DNA of 64,000 nt. Source: Vineibacter terrae (GTDB lineage Bacteria; Pseudomonadota; Alphaproteobacteria; Reyranellales; Reyranellaceae). Every line of letters begins with the position of its first letter. The first letter of the stretch is position 1. Shown one piece after another: positions 35,283 to 52,113 of the stretch. The stretch covers positions 1-64,000 of the forward strand of contig NZ_VDUZ01000022.1 in NCBI RefSeq assembly GCF_008039615.1, in the 5' to 3' direction. The notes below the pieces were generated by a model that was not told the DNA's origin, did not search any database, and saw nothing but the letters and a program-made list of their open reading frames with translations. Both the position numbers and the translations under genes were made by a program.

Positions 35283-36398
<1,116 letters not shown>

Positions 36399-36408
36399 CT
36401 TCGGCTTT

Positions 36409-36507
36409 GGACCGCGGGCGTCCACGCCCGCGATCGGCGCACAGCGCCGACAGTCTTTCGCTCTTCGCTTTGCTGCGAGCGAATGCGGGCGTGGACGCCC
36501 GCGGTCC
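36409..36507. repeat. Family D long inverted repeat
   Basis: Two perfectly complementary 23-base arms (36409-36431 and 36485-36507; core CCGCGGGCGTCCACGCCCGC) enclose a 53-base loop that itself has ATCGGCGCACAGCGCCGA. It lies between the convergent ends of cysA and comF and may serve as a bidirectional terminator, though no T-run is present. Confidence 0.85.
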
Positions 36508-36512
36508 GAATT

Positions 36513-37283
36513 CTACAACCGTAATTGCGGACGCACGACGCGGGCCAATGTCAGCACGTCGACGGCGGCGGCGCCGGCGAGCAGCAGGGCGCGGGCGCAG
36601 GCCTCGACGGTGGCGCCTGTCGTGAGCACGTCGTCGATCAGCAGCACGGTCTTGTCGCGCACCGCGTCCCGGTGGTGGGAATGGACACGGAAGGCGCCGG
36701 CGACATTGCGGCGCCGCTCGCGGGCATTCAGCGCCACCTGCGAGGGGGTGCGCCGATGCCGCACCAGCAGGTCCGGCACCACGCGCGCAGGGCCGTGTCC
36801 CGCCAGTGCGCGTGCCAGCTCGGCCGACTGGTTGTAGCGCCGCCACAGCAGGCGCCAGCGATGCAGCGGCACCGGCGCGATCAGGTCGGCGTCGGCCAGC
36901 AGCACTGCGCCGGCCTGCGCCAGCCAGCGTCCGAAGGTCGGCGCCGGATCGAGCCGGTCGGCATGCTTGAACATCAGCACCAGCCGGCGCGATTCGTCGG
37001 TGTAGGCGAAGGCGGCGCGGGCGCGGCGGTAGCGCGGCCTCTTGGCCATGCAGGCGGCGCACAGCGTGTCCGGGCCGGCGTCGACCTCGAACGGGATGCC
37101 GCAGCAGGCGCATAGCGGCGGCGTGATGAACGCGATCCTGGACCAGCAGGCCGCGCACAGCATGCCCGGCATGTCGACCGCGGCGCTGCACGACAGGCAT
37201 TGCGGCGGCAGCAGCACGTCGAGCGCCGCGCGCCCGTAGCGCTGCATCGCCGCCCGCACCGGGTTGAGATCCATATGGGCCAT
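36513..37283 (-). CDS. comF: ComF family protein
   Basis: A 256-residue protein with two N-terminal zinc ribbons (CLSCSA..CAAC and CACCGIPF..CAAC, residues 30-82) and a phosphoribosyltransferase domain with VLLIDDVLTTGAT near residue 220. ComF supports DNA uptake in competent bacteria; in others its role is open. ATG 37283 is chosen, with GGTGG upstream; another ATG three codons later fits as well. The usual neighbours grxC and nit lie 9 kb away, beyond the sulfate cluster. Confidence 0.88.
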   Translation of the reverse strand: MAHMDLNPVRAAMQRYGRAALDVLLPPQCLSCSAAVDMPGMLCAACWSRIAFITPPLCACCGIPFEVDAGPDTLCAACMAKRPRYRRARAAFAYTDESRRLVLMFKHADRLDPAPTFGRWLAQAGAVLLADADLIAPVPLHRWRLLWRRYNQSAELARALAGHGPARVVPDLLVRHRRTPSQVALNARERRRNVAGAFRVHSHHRDAVRDKTVLLIDDVLTTGATVEACARALLLAGAAAVDVLTLARVVRPQLRL

Positions 37284-37358
37284 GCCACCGGCCGATTCGG
37301 GCGAATTCGTGGCGGTAGGGCTCTCGCACATGGCACAAGGCCGCGCTGAGACACCTGC

Positions 37359-37446
37359 TGTCATCCCGAGCGCAGCGAGGGATCTCCCGCGAATTGCGCA
37401 CGGTGCGTCTTTCCGCAGGAGATCCCTCGCTGCGCTCGGGATGACA
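37359..37446. repeat. Family B palindromic repeat
   Basis: An 88-base inverted repeat with ends TGTCATCCCGAGCGCAGCGA and its complement and loop around GCGCACGGTGCGTC. It lies between the aldolase and comF genes, both on the minus strand. Confidence 0.85.
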
Positions 37447-37492
37447 GAAAGGCCATATGCGATTGCCTTAGCCTTCGCGGGGAGAAGGGATA

Positions 37493-41897: not shown

Positions 41898-42143
41898 TCC
41901 CCCACCCCGGCCGGCTACGGCATTCACACATCGCGCCCGCCGTCTGAAACGCTGCCCTTCCCCCGGAGAGGGAAGGTGGCGCGCAGCGCCGGAAGGGGGA
42001 TGTTGCAATCGCTTCGATGCTGCTGAACAGCCGCCGAATCTGTTCCAACATCCCCCTTCCGCCCCTTGCGGGGCACCTTTCCCCTCCGGGGGAAGGGACG
42101 CTTAAGGTGTGTGAGTCCGGTAGCCCCGGCCGGGGAGACCGCG
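41898..42143. repeat. F outer arms enclosing a family C repeat
   Basis: Left F arm (41898-41934: GTCTCCCCCACCCCGGCCGG then CTACGGCATTCACACATC) and right arm (42107-42143, its inverted copy) surround a family C element at 41955-42098. That element has outer arms CCCTTCCCCCGGAG / CTCCGGGGGAAGGG and inner arms CCGGAAGGGGGATGTT / AACATCCCCCTTCCG. It fills the gap between argJ and the parvulin gene. Confidence 0.8.
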
Positions 42144-42146
42144 TTG

Positions 42147-43070
42147 TCACTTCTTCCCGGGCGCGCTCGGCGGCGCCGCCGGCGGGGCGGCCGGCGCCTC
42201 GGGGATCTTCGAGCCGTCCATGTTGAACTTCTCGATTTTGGCAGTCTTGCGCAGGCCTTCCATCATCTGGCCGTAGACCTCGCGCGACAGCTCGGCACGC
42301 AGCTCGTCCTCCATGTCCTCCATCGAGGGCGGCTGGGCGGCGCGGCGATCGTCGAGACGGATGACGTGGAAGCCGAACTGGCTCTTGACCGGCGCCGGCG
42401 TCGTCTCGCCCTTCTTGAGCATGAAGGCGGCCTCGGCGAATTCCTTCACCATGTCGCCCTTCTTGAACCAGCCGAGGTCGCCGCCCTGGGCGCCCGATGC
42501 CTTGTCCGTCGACTTGTCCTTGGCGATCTTGTCGAAATCGCCGCCCTTCTGCAGCTCGTCGATGATGGCCTTGGCGGCGGCTTCGTCGACGACCAGGATA
42601 TGGCGGGCCTTGACCTCTTCCTCCGGCGGCAGGTCGCGCACCTTCTTGTCATAGAGCGCCTTGATCGCCTGCGGCGTGACGCGCTTGTCGATCTCCTGCG
42701 TCAGGAACTGCTCCTGCAGCAGGCGATCCTCCAGGCCGGCGAGGCGCTTCTTGAACGCCTCGGTGTCCTGCACGTTGGTCTTGCGGGCCTCCGCGACCTG
42801 CAGCCTGGCGTCGATGATCTGCTCGAGCAGCGCCGGGAAGATGCGTTCCAGGGGCAGCCCGCGATACTGCTGCGGCAGGTTGGCCTGCGCCGCCTGAACA
42901 TCGGTCAGACGGATCGACTGGCCGTTGACGGTTGCCACAACCGGGTCGGCCGGCGGCTTGGCGGAAGGCGCAGGCGTGGGCGCGGGTGCCGGCGCCTGGG
43001 CGAAGGATGGCGCGGCCACGGCCATTGTCAGCAGCAAGGCCGCGCACACGCCGCGCGTGAAGGACGTCAT
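42147..43070 (-). CDS. Parvulin-type peptidyl-prolyl isomerase, exported
   Basis: A 307-residue periplasmic chaperone/isomerase. It has a signal peptide (residues 1-25, ending PSFAQ), a Pro/Ala linker, an N-terminal chaperone region (VNGQSIRLTDVQAAQANLP), a rotamase domain around residues 150-245 (VKARHILVVDEAAA, GGDLGWFKKGDMVKEFAEAAF, TPAPVKSQFGFHVIRLDD) and a Pro/Ala tail. It helps fold outer-membrane or secreted proteins. In many alphaproteobacteria this gene sits between secA and argJ; secA is absent here. Confidence 0.92.
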   Translation of the reverse strand: MTSFTRGVCAALLLTMAVAAPSFAQAPAPAPTPAPSAKPPADPVVATVNGQSIRLTDVQAAQANLPQQYRGLPLERIFPALLEQIIDARLQVAEARKTNVQDTEAFKKRLAGLEDRLLQEQFLTQEIDKRVTPQAIKALYDKKVRDLPPEEEVKARHILVVDEAAAKAIIDELQKGGDFDKIAKDKSTDKASGAQGGDLGWFKKGDMVKEFAEAAFMLKKGETTPAPVKSQFGFHVIRLDDRRAAQPPSMEDMEDELRAELSREVYGQMMEGLRKTAKIEKFNMDGSKIPEAPAAPPAAPPSAPGKK

Positions 43071-43264: not shown

Positions 43265-44245
43265 TCAGCCGTAGCGCCGCGCCAGCGTGCCGAGCGCAAG
43301 GTCGTGGGCGCGTTCCAGCCCGTCCAGCGACTCGGTGTAGTCGCCGAACTTCTTGCGGTTCACGGCCCGGGCCAGCTGGAACTGCAGCGCCTTGGCGCCT
43401 TCGGCAACCTGGTGGCAGGCGGCGGCGACACCATCCAGCCCGGCTTCACCCTGGCCGGCGAGCCACTGCACGTGGCTGCCCAGCAGCTCGAAATTGGCGC
43501 CGAGCTGGCGCATGATGTTGAACGCGTAGAGATGGAAATAGGCCATCGGCCGCGCCGCCAGCATGTCCAGATGGCCGGGGAACGCGGCGCGGAACGCCGC
43601 GAAGGCGCCGGCCGGACGCCGGGCGAGGTGGTCCTTCATCAGCGCCAGCACCGCATCCAGCAGTGCCCGCCCGCTCAATGCGCGGCCGTCACGCTTGACG
43701 AACTCGGCATAGGGGAACAGCACGTCCGGCCGATCCTGCTGCATCGGCAGGCGACGGAAGAGGCCGTCGAAGTCCTCGCCCGTGACCAGGTGGTAGCTGG
43801 TGTTGTGGAAATAGCCCAGAGTGCGCGCATCGATGTCGATCGCATTGATGGCGATCGTCGATTTCACATGCCCCTGCCGGTAGGCGGTGCCGCGCGTGTC
43901 GGGCAGGTAGAAGCTGTCGACCTCGACCAGCGGCATGCGCCCGCGCCGGATCTGCTCGACGGCGTGCCCCTCGACCGTGTCGTAGATGGCCAGCTCCTGC
44001 ACCGAGAGGCCGAACAGCGTGCGCAGGTCCTCGAGCGGGAACTTGAAGAAGGTGAAGTGATCGCCCTCGAAGTCCTGGCCGATGGTGAACGGCAGCGCCG
44101 CCAGCGGCTCGAGGCCGAAAGCGTGCAGCACCTCGATCCAGACATCGACATAGCAGTTGGTCTCGAGCCAGATGCGGTCAGGCGCATGCAAGGCATGCGC
44201 ACGGTACGTCGCTGGATCGAGCGCCAGCAGCCGAACGCCACTCAT
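43265..44245 (-). CDS. DUF1839 family protein, putative carrier-protein acyltransferase
   Basis: A 326-residue protein of the DUF1839 family, last gene of the carrier-protein operon. Visible motifs are WLETNCYVDVW (Cys31), QDFEGDHFTFFKFPLEDLR, VEVDSFYLPDT (Asp110) and YRQGHVKSTIAINAID (His126). Their order (Cys, VDxxYLP, then His before a hydrophobic strand) recalls the papain-like BtrH N-terminal domain, which moves an acyl group from a carrier protein to an acceptor; this link is inference. The C-terminal half is helical. It starts five bases after the ligase stop. Confidence 0.8.
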   Translation of the reverse strand: MSGVRLLALDPATYRAHALHAPDRIWLETNCYVDVWIEVLHAFGLEPLAALPFTIGQDFEGDHFTFFKFPLEDLRTLFGLSVQELAIYDTVEGHAVEQIRRGRMPLVEVDSFYLPDTRGTAYRQGHVKSTIAINAIDIDARTLGYFHNTSYHLVTGEDFDGLFRRLPMQQDRPDVLFPYAEFVKRDGRALSGRALLDAVLALMKDHLARRPAGAFAAFRAAFPGHLDMLAARPMAYFHLYAFNIMRQLGANFELLGSHVQWLAGQGEAGLDGVAAACHQVAEGAKALQFQLARAVNRKKFGDYTESLDGLERAHDLALGTLARRYG

Positions 44246-44250
44246 GATCC

Positions 44251-45177
44251 TCAGGTCCAGAGCTGATCGCGTACGGCTTGCGGCCAGGCCTTCACGTCGA
44301 AGCCGTGGTGCTTGAACAGCGCCAGCGCAATGCGCTCGACGCCGAAGCCGACGCAGGCCGTGTGGGCCGTGCCGCCATCCTGGGTGCGGATGTCCCAGAC
44401 ATGGCCGAAATGGTCCTGGTGGTAGTTGAAGCTCAGGCAGGCCGTGGGCTTCTCGCGGCTGGTGATCGGGATCAGCAGCTCGAACTTCAGCGTCTGGTCG
44501 CGCTGGTTGGCGGCCAGCATCTTGCCGGCACGCCCGAAGAACGGGTCGTTGGCGACGTCGACCTCGAGCGGCACGCCCAGGGCCGACATGATGGCCGTGC
44601 CGCGATCGACCCAGAGCTGGCGGAACGCCATCACCTGATCGGCCGTGCCGATGCGCACATACTCGCGCTGGCGGAACAGCTGCATGCGCGCCGGGTCGAT
44701 CGAGGGCTCGTGGCGGAAGCAGTAGGAATAGACGTCGACCAGCGCCCCGTCGGCGGGCAGCTTGCCGCGCGCCGCCAGCACCGGGTACAGCGGATAGCAG
44801 GCGGCCGGCGTCATCACGACCTGCGTCGCCTTCTGGCCCGCGGTCCAGTCTTCCTTCTTCAGCAGCGTCTCGATCAGCGCCTGATGGTCGCGATCATTGC
44901 CCATGAAGCTGTGAATGGTGCCGGCCAGCTGCGGGAAGCTCTTGAGGTAGCCGCTGTCCTCGAAATCGCGCCGGTTGATGGCCGGCGGGAAGCGCATCAC
45001 CTCGGCGCCGTCATTGCCGCCATGGCGGGAGACCAGCAGATTGAAGCGCTCGATGACGTCCTCGAAGACACCGCTGCGGCCGTACAGCCCGTCGACCCCC
45101 ATCGGGATCAGCAGGCGGTGCGCGATCAGCGCGTCGCGGAAGGCGGCCTGGGCCGCGCTCAGGGCATCGGCGGTCAT
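44251..45177 (-). CDS. Amino acid--[acyl-carrier-protein] ligase (seryl-tRNA synthetase-like)
   Basis: A 308-residue class II aminoacyl-tRNA synthetase homologue with no tRNA-binding arm. Members from Bradyrhizobium activate Gly or Ala and attach it to the phosphopantetheine of a small carrier protein. The zinc site appears intact: Cys128 ([10 protein letters not shown]), Glu172 (RQREYVRIG) and Cys275 ([11 protein letters not shown]). Motif 2 is YCFRHEP (Arg155) and motif 3 [12 protein letters not shown] (Arg282). The ATG overlaps the upstream dehydrogenase stop by four bases. It is an essential loading step of the operon. Confidence 0.9.
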
Positions 45178-46334
45178 GGGAACAGCCCCGGATCGTCCTT
45201 GAGGACGAGCAGCAGGTTGGCGGTGTTGGCCAGGATGCGGTCGTTGCTGACCATCAGCGCCGCCGAGTGGGCGTCACGCAGATGCCGGCCGACGCTGAAC
45301 TCGCTGTCGTTGCGGTAGCCGGAAATGCCGCAGATCAGCAGGGCGTGGTTCACCACCTGCACCGCCATCTGCGACGTGCCGATCTTGAGGTTGTTCATCG
45401 CCACCGCGAACGACAGCGCGGTGAGCCGCTCGGCCGAGCCCAGCGCCGCCTCGTACTGCCGTGCTGCCGCCACCACGTTCGACTTCATGTGCTGCAGCAG
45501 GTTCATCGACTCGGCCAGCCGCAGGGCGCCCGGCGGGGTGCTGCCCGGCTTCTTGCGCGCCTCGGCGCGCACGAAGGTGCGCGCGCGCGCCACGGCGTCG
45601 GTAGCGATGCCCAGCCACAGGCTGCTCCAGGTCAGGTGCGACGTCGGCAGCATGGTCTGGGCCGAGATGTCGGCATAGGGCAGGGGCAGGATCTGGGCCA
45701 CGTCGCCGGCCGCGTGCAGCCAGTAGCCGTTGCTGCAGGTGCCGCGCATGCCCAGCGTGTCCCACGACGAGGTCTGCTCCAGCCGGTAGTCGCCTTTCAG
45801 CACCGCGACGATCACCTGGTCGGAGGCCGGCGAGTCGGGCGTGCGCCGCGCCGTGACCAGGATGCCGTCGGCATCGGCGCCGTAGGAGATCACGGTCGCG
45901 TTCTTGCTGACCTTCAGGCGCTGGCCCTCGACCTCGACGGCGCAGACGCTGCTGCGCACGTCACCGCCGACGCCGGCCTCGGAGGTCGCCGAGGCCAGAA
46001 GCAGCTGCTCGCCAGCCAGCCGCTGCAGGAGCTGACGGTGCCAGGGGCTTTGCTGGCCATGGCGCACGATGCATGCCACCTGGATCTGGTGCATGGCATA
46101 GATCATCGCAGTCGAGGCGCAGTGCTGGCCCAGGGCATGGCACAGCGACAGGATCTCGGGGATCGAGGCGCCGGCGCCGCCGAACTCCGCCGGCACCATG
46201 ACGCCCAGCAGCTTCTCCGCCTTCAGCGCCGCGAAGGATTCGCGCGGGAAGCGGGCATCGGCGTCGACGGCGCTGGCGTGCCTGGCAGCGACCTCGGCAC
46301 CAACCCGCCGCGCCCGCTGCAGCAGATCGCTCAT
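45174..46334 (-). CDS. Acyl-CoA dehydrogenase-like flavoprotein of the carrier-protein operon
   Basis: A 386-residue protein with the acyl-CoA dehydrogenase fold: N-terminal helical domain ([17 protein letters not shown]), middle beta domain ([32 protein letters not shown]) and C-terminal helices. The segment where dehydrogenases have RDAxxxxxYEGT reads [15 protein letters not shown], so the usual catalytic Glu is missing. It may act on an aminoacyl thioester, oxidise by another base, or use oxygen. It overlaps both the carrier-protein and ligase genes by four bases. Confidence 0.85.
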
Positions 46335-46591
46335 GCGGCGGCTTTTTGGTCCAGGAGCTCGCCGACGGCGGCCTTGATGGCGTCGATGCTCTCGAAGGTC
46401 CGTCGCCGCAGCAGGCGATCCGGGAACTCAACGTCGAACTTTTCCTCCAGGCTCAGCATCAGGTTGACCGTGGCATGGGATGTCAGGCCGGCGGTGTAGA
46501 GGTCGGCCGAATCGCTGAGCGTCGCGATATCGACAGGCAAGATGCTACCTTCGCGAAAGATGTCGCGAATCATGTCGGCTACGGTCGTCAC
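46331..46591 (-). CDS. Aminoacyl carrier protein
   Basis: An 86-residue acyl-carrier-protein fold. The phosphopantetheine site is Ser38 in DLYTAGLTSHATV (canonical ACP: DSL), followed by NLMLSLEEKFDVEFPD. The GLTS-x-A-V pattern marks the carrier proteins loaded by synthetase-like ligases. The first gene of the operon, it starts with GTG at 46591 behind GGGGGA; an internal ATG at 46573 would remove six residues. A phosphopantetheinyl transferase is not in the window and must be supplied elsewhere. Confidence 0.88.
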   Translation of the reverse strand: MTTVADMIRDIFREGSILPVDIATLSDSADLYTAGLTSHATVNLMLSLEEKFDVEFPDRLLRRRTFESIDAIKAAVGELLDQKAAA

Positions 46592-46866
46592 GACGATGCG
46601 TCCCCCGAATGCGGAGTCTCAACAAGTGCTAAATATCTGAAACTAAACTATTATTTACTGCCTTTCGCTGCAATGCAAGATGCTTTTGCCCCAGCGGGGA
46701 CCAAATAATCGAAAGAGCCCTCACTATCCCAGGGTCGGTATGGCAATGCGCTTGCGGCAACGCACTGTCAACAGCGCTTCTGCGGAGACTGGTCCGGCTA
46801 TATTGGTTACCCTACCGGTGGTGCCCGCATGGCATCCCAGATGGCTATATGGTGGTGGAGGCAGTG
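46592..46866. other. Divergent region between carrier-protein operon and zinc dehydrogenase
   Basis: No gene is supported. An AT-rich stretch at about 46616-46665 contains, on the minus strand, TTGCAT followed by TAAATAAT and is the best promoter area for the carrier-protein operon. On the plus strand TATATT at about 46799-46804 may be the -10 of the dehydrogenase promoter; no good -35 is seen. Confidence 0.4.
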
Positions 46867-47946
46867 ATGCGGGCAGTAATTCTCAGGCAGGGCGATCTCG
46901 TGGTCGACACGGTGCCCGACCCGAAGCCCGGCGCCGGACAGGTGCTGGTGAAGACCCTGGCGTGCGGGATCTGCGGCTCGGACCTGCATGCCCACAAGCA
47001 CGGCCACCGGATGGTCGACGTCAGCCGGCGGGTCGGCGGGCGCGAGCCGATGGATCTCGGGCGTGACGTCATCTTCGGCCATGAGTTCTGCGCCGAGGTG
47101 CTGGACCATGGCCCCGGCACGGCCCGCACCTTGAAGCCCGGAACGCGGGTCTGCTCGGTGCCCGTCGTCGTCACCGAGCAGGGACCGCGCACCGTCGGCT
47201 ACTCGAACGACTTCCCTGGCGGGTTTGCCGAGCAGATGGTGCTGAGCGAGCCGCTGCTGATCGAAGTACCCAACGGCCTGTCGGCCGAGCACGCGGCCCT
47301 GACCGAGCCGCTCGCCGTCGGCATCCACGCCGTGGAGAAGGCGGCGGTGAAGGGTGACGAGGTGCCCCTGGTGATCGGTTGCGGCCCGGTCGGCCTGGCG
47401 GTGATCGCGGCCCTCAAGCTGAAGAAGCTGCACCCGATCATCGCGGCGGATTTCTCGCCGGCACGGCGCAAGCTGGCCGAGCAGCTGGGTGCCGACATCG
47501 TCGTCGACCCTGCCCGGACCTCGCCCTACACGACCTGGATGGACAAGGCCGCGCTCGGCGGCCCGGCGCCGGCGGTGGGTGGCCCGGTGTGGACCCCGCC
47601 GCAATACAAGCCGGCCCTGGTCTTCGAATGCGTCGGCGTGCCCGGCGTGCTGCAGAAGATCTTCGAGGGCGTGCCGCGCGGCGCCCGGGTTGTGGTCGTG
47701 GGCGTCTGCATGGAGGTCGACCAGGTCGAGCCCATGTTCGGCATCACCAAGGAGCTGAACCTGCAGTTCGTGCTGGGCTACACCCCCGAGGAGTTTGCCC
47801 GTGCGCTGCGGCTGATCGCCGAGGGCGCCGTCGATGCCGCCTCCCTGATCACGGGCAAGGTCGGCGTCGACGGCGTCAAGGCCGCCTTCGAGCAGCTCGG
47901 CAACCCCGAGCGCCATACGAAGATCCTGGTCGAGCCTTGGCGCTGA
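46867..47946 (+). CDS. Zinc-dependent alcohol dehydrogenase family protein
   Basis: A 359-residue medium-chain dehydrogenase. Catalytic zinc ligands are in CGICGSDLHAH and IFGHEFCAEV; the coenzyme motif is VIGCGPVGLAVIAALK. The four-Cys structural zinc lobe is absent. The substrate is unknown; an insertion with TSPYTTWMDKAALGG is unusual. ATG 46867 was chosen because GGAGG lies six bases upstream; ATG 46849 would add six residues without a ribosome site. Confidence 0.88.
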   Translation: MRAVILRQGDLVVDTVPDPKPGAGQVLVKTLACGICGSDLHAHKHGHRMVDVSRRVGGREPMDLGRDVIFGHEFCAEVLDHGPGTARTLKPGTRVCSVPVVVTEQGPRTVGYSNDFPGGFAEQMVLSEPLLIEVPNGLSAEHAALTEPLAVGIHAVEKAAVKGDEVPLVIGCGPVGLAVIAALKLKKLHPIIAADFSPARRKLAEQLGADIVVDPARTSPYTTWMDKAALGGPAPAVGGPVWTPPQYKPALVFECVGVPGVLQKIFEGVPRGARVVVVGVCMEVDQVEPMFGITKELNLQFVLGYTPEEFARALRLIAEGAVDAASLITGKVGVDGVKAAFEQLGNPERHTKILVEPWR

Positions 47947-51285: not shown

Positions 51286-51435
51286 GGATGGAGCGCACTC
51301 GCTTTCGTGCTTTCGATTCGACGGGCACGTGCTTCCGAGCGCAAGGAGGAAACTTCCCGCGAACAGGAGATGTTCGCTGCGCTCGATATGACATAGCGTT
51401 GTTGGCTACCTGGAATCGCTGGTCGCTGATACACC

Positions 51436-51523
51436 TGTCATCCCGAGCGCAGCGAGGGATCTCCTGCGGCAAGGCGCACGGTGCGCCATTCGCGGGAGAT
51501 CCCTCGCTGCGCTCGGGATGACA
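51436..51523. repeat. Family B palindromic repeat
   Basis: An 88-base inverted repeat with ends TGTCATCCCGAGCGCAGCGA and its complement and loop around GGCGCACGGTGCGCC. It lies between greB and the amidase gene, both on the minus strand; the flanking bases (51286-51435) contain no gene. Confidence 0.85.
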
Positions 51524-51555
51524 GTCATGACTCACCTTTTGCCAATAGCCGGTTA

Positions 51556-52113
51556 CTAGCTCGCATCCGGGTAGCGGATCGCGATCACCTCGATGCTGTC
51601 CGGGCCGGCCGGGGTGCGCACCTCCACGGAGTCGCCCTCCTGGGCTTTCAGCAGCGCACGCGCCACGGGCGAGATCCAGCTCACATGGCCGCGGTCGAGG
51701 TCGACCTCGTCGACGCCGACGATCGTGATGGTGTGCTCCTCGTCACGGCCGTTCACGTAGGTGACGGTGGCGCCGAAGAACACCTGATCGCGGTTCGGCT
51801 GCCTGGCCGGGTCGACGACCTGGGCGGCCGACAGCCGCTTGCTCAGGAAGCGGATGCGGCGGTCGATCTCGCGCAGCCGCTTCTTGCCGTAGAGATAGTC
51901 GCCGTTCTCCGAGCGGTCGCCGTTGGCGGCAGCCCATGACACGACCTTCACCACCTCGGGCCGTTCGACATCCATCAGGTTCATCAGCTCGGCGCGCAGG
52001 CGCGCGAAGCCCGACGGCGTGATGTAGTTCTTGACGCCGGTCGGCAGCGACGACGCATCGGGCGGATCGTCGTCGATGTCGCCGTCGGTCTCCTTGGTGA
52101 AAGCCTTGCTCAT
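51556..52113 (-). CDS. greB: Transcription elongation factor GreB
   Basis: A 185-residue Gre factor. The N-terminus MSKAFTKE and the coiled-coil with the acidic tip ANGDRSENGDYLYGKKRLREIDRR are GreB hallmarks; the C-terminal FKBP-like domain follows (FGATVTYVNG, IVGVDEVD, SPVARALLKAQEGD). It rescues backtracked RNA polymerase by stimulating transcript cleavage. An acidic insertion (DGDIDDDPPDASS) follows the start. It begins ten bases after the DsbA-family gene and probably shares its message. Confidence 0.93.
   Translation of the reverse strand: MSKAFTKETDGDIDDDPPDASSLPTGVKNYITPSGFARLRAELMNLMDVERPEVVKVVSWAAANGDRSENGDYLYGKKRLREIDRRIRFLSKRLSAAQVVDPARQPNRDQVFFGATVTYVNGRDEEHTITIVGVDEVDLDRGHVSWISPVARALLKAQEGDSVEVRTPAGPDSIEVIAIRYPDAS

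Follow-up and report, generated by a model that had tools for sequence, protein, structure and literature searches.

We report here a structural match between a DUF1839 protein of Vineibacter terrae and carrier-using condensing enzymes, together with two partner genes that are co-inherited with DUF1839. The protein is encoded with three others in the window, a stretch of 64,000 nucleotides of contig NZ_VDUZ01000022.1. The reading that we put forward, to which we give about even confidence, is a carrier-protein-based aminoacyl transfer in which glycine or alanine would be loaded, oxidised, moved onto the DUF1839 cysteine and then passed to an amine, probably that of a sugar. According to the accessible part of a 2022 review, carrier aminoacylation by such ligases has no known biological role (PMC9437257), in keeping with the initial annotation, for which the pathway product was not known. 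The structural match and the two partner genes narrow this role to the questions of which donor, which oxidation and which amine.

The four-gene locus and its conservation

The genes lie on the minus strand in the order carrier protein (CP), acyl-CoA-dehydrogenase-fold flavoenzyme (ACAD), amino acid:carrier-protein ligase and DUF1839 (Table 1). Four bases are shared at the CP/ACAD junction and again at the ACAD/ligase junction, and 5 bases separate the ligase from DUF1839; coordinates, overlaps, gap and family matches all agree with the four coupled genes, in this order, of the initial annotation. The G+C content at third codon positions is 79-93% across the four frames.

Table 1. Positions of the four genes of the window and of the GH2 gene located elsewhere in the genome
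Feature	Coordinates	Strand	Remarks
Carrier protein (CP), 86 aa	46331..46591	minus	GTG start; PF00550, NF005480
Acyl-CoA-dehydrogenase-fold flavoenzyme (ACAD), 386 aa	45174..46334	minus	PF02771, PF00441
Amino acid:carrier-protein ligase, 308 aa	44251..45177	minus	NF005479
DUF1839 protein, 326 aa	43265..44245	minus	PF08893
GH2 glycosidase	G000:C20:42968-45460		

The ligase is present in one copy in the genome. Its relatives were compared at the best 80 of 454 confirmed matches, and 76 of these 80 carry CP, ACAD, ligase and DUF1839 together on one strand in the same order. The co-occurrence of the four families in one order was thus borne out among the ligase homologues, and since order and strand are kept to this extent the arrangement is not due to chance. 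The exceptions are L042, L074, L057 and L065. L042 and L074 start at contig ends, immediately before the ligase on its upstream side. The L057 genome has one ligase, beside a CP, with ACAD-DUF1839-GH2 about 31 kb off on the same contig and a divergent hydrolase. L065 is an extra ligase in a genome that carries, on a contig other than that of L065, a CP-ACAD-ligase-DUF1839-GH2 set together with the hydrolase. L066, in which ACAD and DUF1839 are each in two frame pieces, is included in the gene-order count; its pieces were left unjoined, are below the length limit and so stand outside the residue counts. For the latter, rows shorter than 85% of the query or containing a stop were excluded, which kept 65/77 CPs, 75/76 ACADs, 79/80 ligases and 69/78 DUF1839 proteins, each plus the protein of the window.

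In a sample of 299 genomes of the phylum, the ligase is directly upstream of DUF1839 in 12 of the 12 genomes that bear DUF1839. Nine genomes have an over-cut-off ligase without DUF1839, and the surroundings were read in seven of them, all but G240 and G334; in 16 genomes of the sample the ligase match is below the cut-off. Ligases without DUF1839, such as Bll0957, are sister variants. A homologous set missing the carrier or the ligase, which the initial annotation had named as evidence against its reading, was encountered once: G427 has a second copy of DUF1839 that stands alone, with ligase, ACAD and CP absent from the 9 kb read.

Two further co-inherited genes and the genomic surroundings

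Of the 299 sampled genomes, those with strong matches to a GH2 (beta-mannosidase-like) glycosidase and to a tandem alpha/beta hydrolase are precisely the 12 with DUF1839, and five more distinct DUF1839 genomes have such matches as well. In V. terrae both genes are outside the window, on another contig and unlinked to the four. We therefore abandon the earlier view of the four genes as a complete small pathway. The GH2 protein matches beta-mannosidases at 1e-52, with two Glu, taken as catalytic, aligned; the alignment of GH2 proteins has 72 rows, its own and those of 71/75 loci. Its sequence has no obvious signal peptide and it is probably cytosolic. The tandem hydrolase, whose alignment is ragged, resembles exosortase-A-associated hydrolases 1 and 2 (TIGR03100 and TIGR03101), one per half, but at 99 vs 168 and 107 vs 203 bits it is far below both curated cut-offs. 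Because no glycosyltransferase or aminosugar gene was found among the six co-inherited genes, a sugar acceptor is a guess. No flavin reductase or electron-transfer protein was found among these six either.

Flippase and Wzz-type polysaccharide genes flank the cassette in some relatives, and an MDR-family MFS transporter is directly upstream of it in Phyllobacterium. The cassette also occurs on plasmids of root and nodule Azospirillum, Rhizobium and Phyllobacterium and of an endofungal betaproteobacterium (94 plasmid records match the ligase; 30 of them were listed and four loci read). For two of these four annotated plasmid loci the gene tables, which are incomplete, list no other polysaccharide-biosynthesis genes nearby. 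Since the same cassette is found on plasmids from roots, nodules and an endofungal bacterium, its product could matter for host-associated life.

The probable loading pair

The CP scores 27.6 against PF00550 (cut-off 20.8) and 104 against NF005480 (cut-off 72), and its closest solved relative is Atu2571 (PDB 4h2w_C and 2jq4, E ~5e-20). Its phosphopantetheine site, Ser38, lies within a GLTS motif and is present in 66/66 aligned rows, an alignment in which Glu49 and Glu55 are invariant as well. The ligase reaches 520 bits against NF005479, 'amino acid--[acyl-carrier-protein] ligase' (curated cut-off 357), and 21.6 against PF00587, below the cut-off of 29.3; its PDB matches are 4h2w (E 7e-97) and 3mey, which is Bll0957 (E 3e-93). 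The solved relatives of ligase and CP are chains A and C of one entry, 4h2w. Residues C127, E172 and C275 of the ligase are invariant in 80/80 rows and align to the same residues of 3mey; from the Bll0957 literature we take them to be the zinc ligands Cys, Glu and Cys. These sequence matches assign the loading pair to the same kind as Atu2571/Bll0957. Glycine is among the reported substrates of the studied ligases in a table of PMC9437257, as far as the accessible part of that review goes.

Charging of tRNA by the ligase was also considered. The protein has a class II SerRS-like core, which aligns only to positions 303-504 of the 518-position archaeal SerRS models, and the N-terminal half of archaeal SerRS is absent from it. 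As it consists of the catalytic core only and passes the carrier-ligase cut-off, this reading was set aside.

The flavoenzyme

The ACAD scores 54.5 against PF02771 (cut-off 22.9) and 29.1 against PF00441 (cut-off 22.4), and its middle domain gives 20.3 against PF02770, below the cut-off of 33.3. The fold is supported by the predicted model (pLDDT 91.7; Foldseek E 4e-18), which matches both dehydrogenases and the DszC/TdsC monooxygenases. In acyl-CoA dehydrogenases a Glu at the MCAD position of the C-terminal motif is catalytic, but this column is Val/Ile in 76/76 ACAD rows. In isovaleryl-CoA dehydrogenase the alternative catalytic Glu is in helix G; in the presumed corresponding region, 223-261, the ACAD rows have no conserved acid, but all 76 carry Asp or Glu at residue 222, where the helix begins, which the sister ACADs do not. 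Residue 365, three past the usual Glu column, is Asp/Glu in 76/76 rows and Asp in 7/8 sister ACADs, and His233 is found in 76/76 rows and in 8/8 ACADs of the sister variants.

The predicted role of the ACAD is oxidation of the aminoacyl group on the carrier. As it lacks the usual Glu base, desaturation and an N- or C-alpha-oxygenation or oxidase reaction are equally likely; for the same reason the ordinary acyl-CoA dehydrogenase reading was downgraded, and the conserved acids 365 and 222 keep it in play. For this second step only, it is possible, though doubtful, that the ACAD is a true alpha,beta-dehydrogenase that would give dehydroalanyl-CP or similar with another base, the invariant His233 or the conserved acid 365. 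Acyl-CoA dehydrogenases are indeed its best sequence-profile matches, and the prolyl-carrier dehydrogenase model RedW matches it weakly. Against this stand the Val/Ile of the usual Glu column, the tie of DszC/TdsC monooxygenases with TcsD (acyl-ACP/acyl-CoA dehydrogenase) for the top query TM-scores among the 50 matches listed, and glycine, the substrate noted above (PMC9437257, accessible part), which has no beta carbon. Such a dehydrogenase is compatible with any reading of DUF1839.

The DUF1839 protein

This protein matches PF08893 with 428 bits (curated cut-off 22.5), and its predicted model (pLDDT 94.3) has a papain-like fold. When the model was compared with the PDB by Foldseek, the 16 chains at E <= 0.001 were of AziU2-U3 (best, 1.9e-7), CtaG (2.9e-5) and CcbD (2.2e-4) only, at TM-scores of just 0.45-0.61; other papain-type enzymes, e.g. 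phytochelatin synthase, are far behind (E ~0.08). AziU2-U3 is part of azinomycin biosynthesis. CtaG is proposed, in the accessible part of PMC6772006, to move a hydroxybenzoyl group from its carrier to a beta-alanine chain that is itself carrier-bound, and for CcbD the accessible part of PMC12945683 describes a CP-tethered proline, a Cys thioester, attack by a thiooctose amine and CP-docking arginines.

Helix 31-42 opens with Cys31, in line with the Cys that heads the central helix in papain-like condensing enzymes. Cys31, His126, Lys128 and His147 are present in 70/70 rows, and residue 130 is Thr or Ser in 69/70; we propose that Cys31 and His147 are catalytic. Lys285, Gln288 and Arg293 are conserved and lie on a late helix of the model. 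A Cys-Thr/Ser-His arrangement with swapped His and Thr/Ser was described for DUF1839 (PMC10318531), so that the triad is not the canonical Cys-His-Glu/Asp, and for want of this canonical triad we did not file the protein with the papain-like carrier-dependent condensing enzymes of the CcbD, CtaG and BtrH kind. Sequence and profile searches of PDB chains gave no sequence link to CcbD, CtaG or BtrH. DUF1839 is predicted to be a carrier-dependent acyl or amide transferase.

The papain-like fold would also suit a hydrolase, be it a thioesterase, an amidase or a cell-wall enzyme; rather than form a bond, DUF1839 would then release or trim the product. Acyl-CoA-dependent cell-wall glycan processing was suggested for DUF1839 from genome context (PMC10318531). 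We consider this improbable: the amide-forming CcbD is among the full-length structural matches, with phytochelatin synthase far behind, and by eye the sequence has no obvious signal peptide.

In another reading DUF1839 is a transferase, but the amine that receives the (oxidised) aminoacyl group is not on a sugar, or a small metabolite resembling a dipeptide is built; the GH2 and the hydrolase would then process a glycosylated, protected precursor in natural-product style. That CtaG, with its carrier-bound proposed acceptor, and AziU2-U3 rank above or beside CcbD would fit, as would the Phyllobacterium transporter and the GH2 without obvious signal peptide. The beta-mannosidase-like nature of this co-inherited glycosidase, the flippase and Wzz-type genes in the flanks and the tie to liposaccharide genes in the accessible part of PMC2922099 speak against it, and we think it unlikely.

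Proposed pathway

In the transfer pathway that we prefer, the ligase would use ATP to activate a small amino acid, which judging from the relatives studied would be Gly or Ala, and, as its family suggests, load it on the CP phosphopantetheine. The ACAD-fold flavoenzyme would then oxidise the carrier-bound aminoacyl group. Cys31 of DUF1839 would accept the acyl group and pass it to an amine, for which a sugar amine is the likeliest candidate; the model for this step, drawn from fold, conserved residues and context, is CcbD with its prolyl-CP and thiooctose amine. Finally, the GH2 and the tandem hydrolase, whose co-inheritance is observed, may process the same intermediate, be it the glycoside or the acyl one. 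The route would end in an N-aminoacylated compound, which could be a sugar, a glycoside or a surface glycan. The scheme of the initial annotation (load an amino acid, alter it, pass it on) is compatible with the loading pair and with the likeness of the DUF1839 model to carrier-using papain-fold enzymes, the amide-forming CcbD included, but it is not complete with four genes.

Besides the gene order, the co-inheritance and the structural matches given above, we counted for this pathway the Lys285/Gln288/Arg293 helix of DUF1839 with Glu49 and Glu55 of the CP, and the fact that ligation to a surface sugar through an amide had been predicted before and independently (PMC2922099, accessible part). 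Counted against it were the low TM-scores, swapped triad and missing sequence link to CcbD, CtaG or BtrH, the solitary DUF1839 copy, the two plasmid loci whose incomplete gene tables list no other polysaccharide-biosynthesis genes nearby, and the lack of a glycosyltransferase, aminosugar, flavin reductase or electron-transfer gene among the six.

A bolder version, which we offer tentatively and think rather unlikely to hold in full, is a horizontally mobile six-gene pathway that combines lincosamide condensing logic with a tRNA-synthetase-derived loader and yields a mannoside or amino-sugar glycoside bearing an oxidised glycyl or alanyl amide, a product not seen so far; the flavoenzyme would act as a carrier-dependent aminoacyl oxygenase and DUF1839, its active site permuted, as a novel amide synthase of papain fold.

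Comparison with known systems

The initial annotation had regarded the system as undescribed. However, in a note in proof, Iyer et al. (2010; PMC2922099, accessible part) presented the same neighbourhood around a SerRS paralogue of Agrobacterium tumefaciens, with Atu2574 and partners, linked it to liposaccharide genes and predicted that Atu2574, which we infer to be a DUF1839 protein, couples an amino acid to the amine of a sugar. Its SerRS paralogue, ACP, redox enzyme, conserved uncharacterised protein and glycosidase follow the same proposed logic, and the V. terrae genome holds the ligase, ACP, redox enzyme and Atu2574-like protein in the window and a glycosidase elsewhere. The two differ in that this glycosidase is on another contig in V. 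terrae, and the part of PMC2922099 consulted assigns no fold to Atu2574. Our literature search, over best-ranked matches that covered few subscription papers, recognised no experimental paper on the four-gene type.

The Bradyrhizobium ligase, cited earlier as precedent, serves as such for the kind of loading pair, but belongs to a sister arrangement without DUF1839. Bll0957 (amino acid:CP ligase 1, PDB 3mey, 4h2s) and Bll0958 likewise pair adjacent ligase and ACAD families (sister locus L137), and bll0957 and bll0958 acd are listed in a table of PMC10888616. In this arrangement, as read in the close relative G217, the CP is divergently transcribed and there is neither DUF1839 nor a strong GH2. 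Unlike Bll0957, the ligase of the window has a loop as in the 4h2w chain, opposite an Atu2571-like CP.

D-alanylation (Dlt), too, relies on a ligase of its own that charges a small carrier with an amino acid, and our CP weakly matches DltC, below the cut-off; the Dlt ligase is of another superfamily, and no MBOAT DltB-type transferase is among the co-inherited genes. CtaG and AziU2-U3, the top structural matches of DUF1839, belong to other pathways and share 10-18% identity with it in structural alignment. The lincosamide condensing enzymes CcbD/LmbD share with DUF1839 the fold of its model, a carrier-bound amino acid donor and basic CP-docking residues (from the CcbD literature; for DUF1839, a residue pattern only), but there is no detectable sequence similarity and the catalytic His of DUF1839 is apparently swapped. 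The loaders differ as well, an adenylation domain in the CcbD/LmbD system and an aminoacyl-tRNA-synthetase-like ligase in the window.

A conserved four-gene operon

The window carries, on the minus strand and in head-to-tail order, genes for a carrier protein (CP), an acyl-CoA-dehydrogenase-like flavoenzyme (ACAD), an amino acid:CP ligase and a DUF1839 protein, with 4-base overlaps at the CP/ACAD and ACAD/ligase junctions and a 5-base gap between ligase and DUF1839. G+C at third codon positions is 79-93% in the four genes, and the ligase is single-copy in this genome (8.76 Mb). The second minus-strand gene downstream of the operon, named from its sequence, is presumably argJ; between it and the parvulin gene we observed two imperfect inverted-repeat pairs (41955-42097; arms of 31 and 32 nt). 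Frames near 36286-37467 and 51430-51936 give short protein-level matches to contig C20 of the same genome, a hint that these may be further dispersed repeats.

Genes of the operon, its neighbours and the two unlinked partner genes
Feature	Contig	Positions	Strand	Remarks
CP	window	46331-46591	minus	PF00550, NF005480 over cut-off
ACAD	window	45174-46334	minus	PF02771, PF00441 over cut-off; middle-domain match below cut-off
Ligase	window	44251-45177	minus	NF005479 'amino acid--[acyl-carrier-protein] ligase' over cut-off
DUF1839	window	43265-44245	minus	PF08893 over cut-off
Alcohol-dehydrogenase-like gene	window	46849-47946	plus	oriented away from operon
Parvulin-type isomerase	window	42147-43070	minus	downstream of DUF1839
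GH2 of window genome (G000)	C20	42968-45460		other contig than operon
Tandem hydrolase of window genome	C20	41184-43100		beside GH2

Scanning for the ligase, with each species represented by a single genome, yielded 454 confirmed relatives; we retained the 80 best together with their flanking regions. By operon locus, the closest named relatives are Reyranella sp. CPCC 100927 and Rhodospirillaceae bacterium SYSU D60007. The four families proposed as an operon in the initial annotation indeed co-occur in the same order and on the same strand in 76 of these 80 loci, a set made up of the nearest relatives rather than drawn at random; in one of the 76 (L066) ACAD and DUF1839 are each split in two frame pieces. 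The exceptions are two contig ends (L042, L074), L057 and L065. The L057 genome has two groups on a single contig, CP-ligase and ACAD-DUF1839-GH2, separated by ~31 kb. The L065 genome (loci L065 and G473:C175:11693-12601) has a full cluster plus an extra ligase at L065, beside which, near a contig end, neither ACAD nor DUF1839 was found. Another ligase match (G370:C23:92354-93265) contains one in-frame TAA.

The 80 loci are mostly alphaproteobacterial, with two MAGs named Myxococcaceae and one Steroidobacter. Large plasmids carry the cluster in Azospirillum, Rhizobium, Phyllobacterium (near repABC) and the betaproteobacterium Mycetohabitans (L149-L152), which suggests horizontal spread. In an even phylum draw of 299 genomes, DUF1839 was found in 12 (13 copies); in each of the 12 an over-cut-off ligase immediately precedes DUF1839 in the same orientation. 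The thirteenth copy, a second one in its genome (L155 118-1044; G427:C159), lies at a contig end with no ligase, ACAD or CP within the 9 kb examined; a tandem hydrolase is nearby. A further draw at class level covered 190 genomes, of which 5 had an over-cut-off ligase (10 any ligase match) and 2 DUF1839. The operon is real and widely conserved.

Two further genes are co-inherited with the operon

Downstream of DUF1839, on the same strand and starting within ~1.3 kb, 75 of the 80 relatives carry a GH2-annotated gene of ~830 codons (beta-mannosidase-like glycoside hydrolase). A tandem alpha/beta hydrolase lies in the fetched flank of 67 (48 have it directly behind GH2, the other 19 at another place) and was not found in the R. 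leguminosarum plasmid stretch. Neither gene adjoins the window operon. Their unlinked pair on C20 is adjoined by genes for an FMN-dependent dehydrogenase, a TPP-dependent enzyme and a TauD-type dioxygenase (L093 8035-13019).

With the best few candidates per genome scored, 22 of the 299 phylum-draw genomes had a GH2 match of any strength and 107 had such a match to the hydrolase. Strong matches, with limits placed at score gaps after the lists were inspected, are present for GH2 (813-1906 bits; the rest at most 189) and for the hydrolase (at least 188 bits; best other genome 80) in all 12 DUF1839 genomes and in no others. A plain count puts the chance of a perfect 12-in-299 match at ~1e-21, whose real weight is much smaller given shared ancestry and linkage. 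The 12 genomes cover 5 families and 9 genera; within genus g168, both DUF1839 and GH2 are present in G211 and G318, and neither in G326, G341 and G443. DUF1839, GH2 and tandem hydrolase are all present in 5/5 distinct genomes comprising the unlinked cases (L002, L003 = G186, L004) and the exceptions L057 and L065. Since co-inheritance holds even where the genes are unlinked, the functional unit seems to comprise six genes, divided between two places in the window clade. The earlier reading of the four genes as a complete small pathway is not supported.

GH2 matches Bacteroides-type beta-mannosidase chains at 1e-52. Its E419 (GGSE) and E500 (SEC), which we take to be acid/base and nucleophile, align with Glu of these chains, and at least 97% of the 72 aligned rows retain them. 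No signal peptide is apparent in its sequence. The tandem hydrolase halves resemble exosortase-A-associated hydrolases 2 and 1, far below both cut-offs.

Sister variants of the ligase and the ACAD reaction

DUF1839 is absent from 9 of the 21 phylum-draw genomes with an over-cut-off ligase. Surroundings were covered for 7 of these, and for G140 and G131 of the class draw. A same-family ACAD lies directly upstream of the ligase in 7/7 and in G140, and a divergently transcribed CP is present in 6/7 and in G140 (43-51 bits, own CP profile); no CP was found beside the G070 ligase. In G131 the 19 kb examined contain CP and ligase but neither ACAD nor DUF1839, possibly a third variant; a tandem-hydrolase homologue lies near this pair (L145 5650-7452). 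The G217 ligase is nearly identical (642 bits over 287 residues) to Bll0957, the crystallised Bradyrhizobium ligase. Because of this near-identity, and of the listing of bll0957 and bll0958 'acd' in a table of PMC10888616, crystallised Bll0957 belongs to a sister variant.

The ACAD fold is clear from model and structural matches. At the position where ACADs usually have their catalytic Glu, located by profile alignments, 76/76 rows have Val or Ile, and residues 223-261, the expected place of an isovaleryl-type Glu, include no conserved acidic residue in these rows. Residue 365 is Asp/Glu in 76/76 (Asp in 7 of 8 sister-variant ACADs) and residue 222 is Asp/Glu in 76/76 (not conserved in the 8); these acids weigh against a firm conclusion from the missing Glu. 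His233, Asn364 and Arg366 are invariant in both sets. In the list of 50 structural matches, DszC/TdsC monooxygenases and TcsD rank first by query TM-score (0.84-0.85); the best sequence matches are dehydrogenases. Monooxygenation was proposed for the redox enzyme in PMC2922099. Gene order, family assignment, co-inheritance, residue conservation and the predicted fold are results of the analysis, whereas we infer donor amino acid, oxidation, acceptor and product; for carrier-bound Gly or Ala, desaturation seems no more likely than oxygenation or an oxidase reaction.

DUF1839 and comparison with known systems

In the literature searched, only PMC10318531 names DUF1839; that paper assigns it to the papain-like superfamily, gives it a Cys-Thr/Ser-His arrangement and proposes that it processes cell-wall glycans. 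Against our model (43 sequences; pLDDT 94.3), the 16 PDB chains at E <= 0.001 are AziU2-U3 (best 1.9e-7), CtaG (2.9e-5) and CcbD (2.2e-4), the last also as a complex that includes the carrier domain; the match to phytochelatin synthase is much weaker (~0.08). Sequence searches alone gave no link to these three, so the predicted likeness is one of fold, perhaps of chemistry, rather than demonstrated membership. CcbD, as outlined in PMC12945683, passes carrier-bound proline via its own cysteine to a thiooctose amine, the carrier being docked by an arginine set. In DUF1839, Cys31, Thr117, His126, Lys128, His147 and Asn148 are unchanged in 70/70 rows, and residue 130 is Thr/Ser in 69/70. The Thr130-His147 spacing (17) is near that of His128-Asp144 in CtaG (16, from variant names), which agrees with the swapped triad reported in PMC10318531. 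A late helix carries Lys285 and Arg293 (70/70) and Gln288 (69/70); CP Glu49 and Glu55 are invariant in 66/66 rows.

The window operon belongs with the variant described for Agrobacterium, because its CP matches Atu2571 (PDB 2jq4, 4h2w_C; 5e-20) far better than aminoacyl carrier protein 1 of 4h2s (5e-5). The 14-residue ligase loop, reportedly shown in a 2013 Structure paper to recognise the carrier, is close to the 4h2w chain loop and unlike that of 3mey. Among the top-ranked matches of our literature search, we recognised no experimental work on the four- or six-gene type. The system had been considered undescribed; its kind was in fact described in 2010, in the note in proof of PMC2922099, where a SerRS paralogue is linked to ACP, redox enzyme, the conserved uncharacterised protein Atu2574, glycosidase and liposaccharide genes; Atu2574 is predicted there to join an amino acid to a sugar amine. 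The window operon is a member of this kind, to which we add the likeness in fold between DUF1839 and CcbD-type enzymes, the joint inheritance of GH2 and tandem hydrolase with the operon, also in genomes that lack linkage, the split in the window clade, and the missing catalytic Glu of ACAD.
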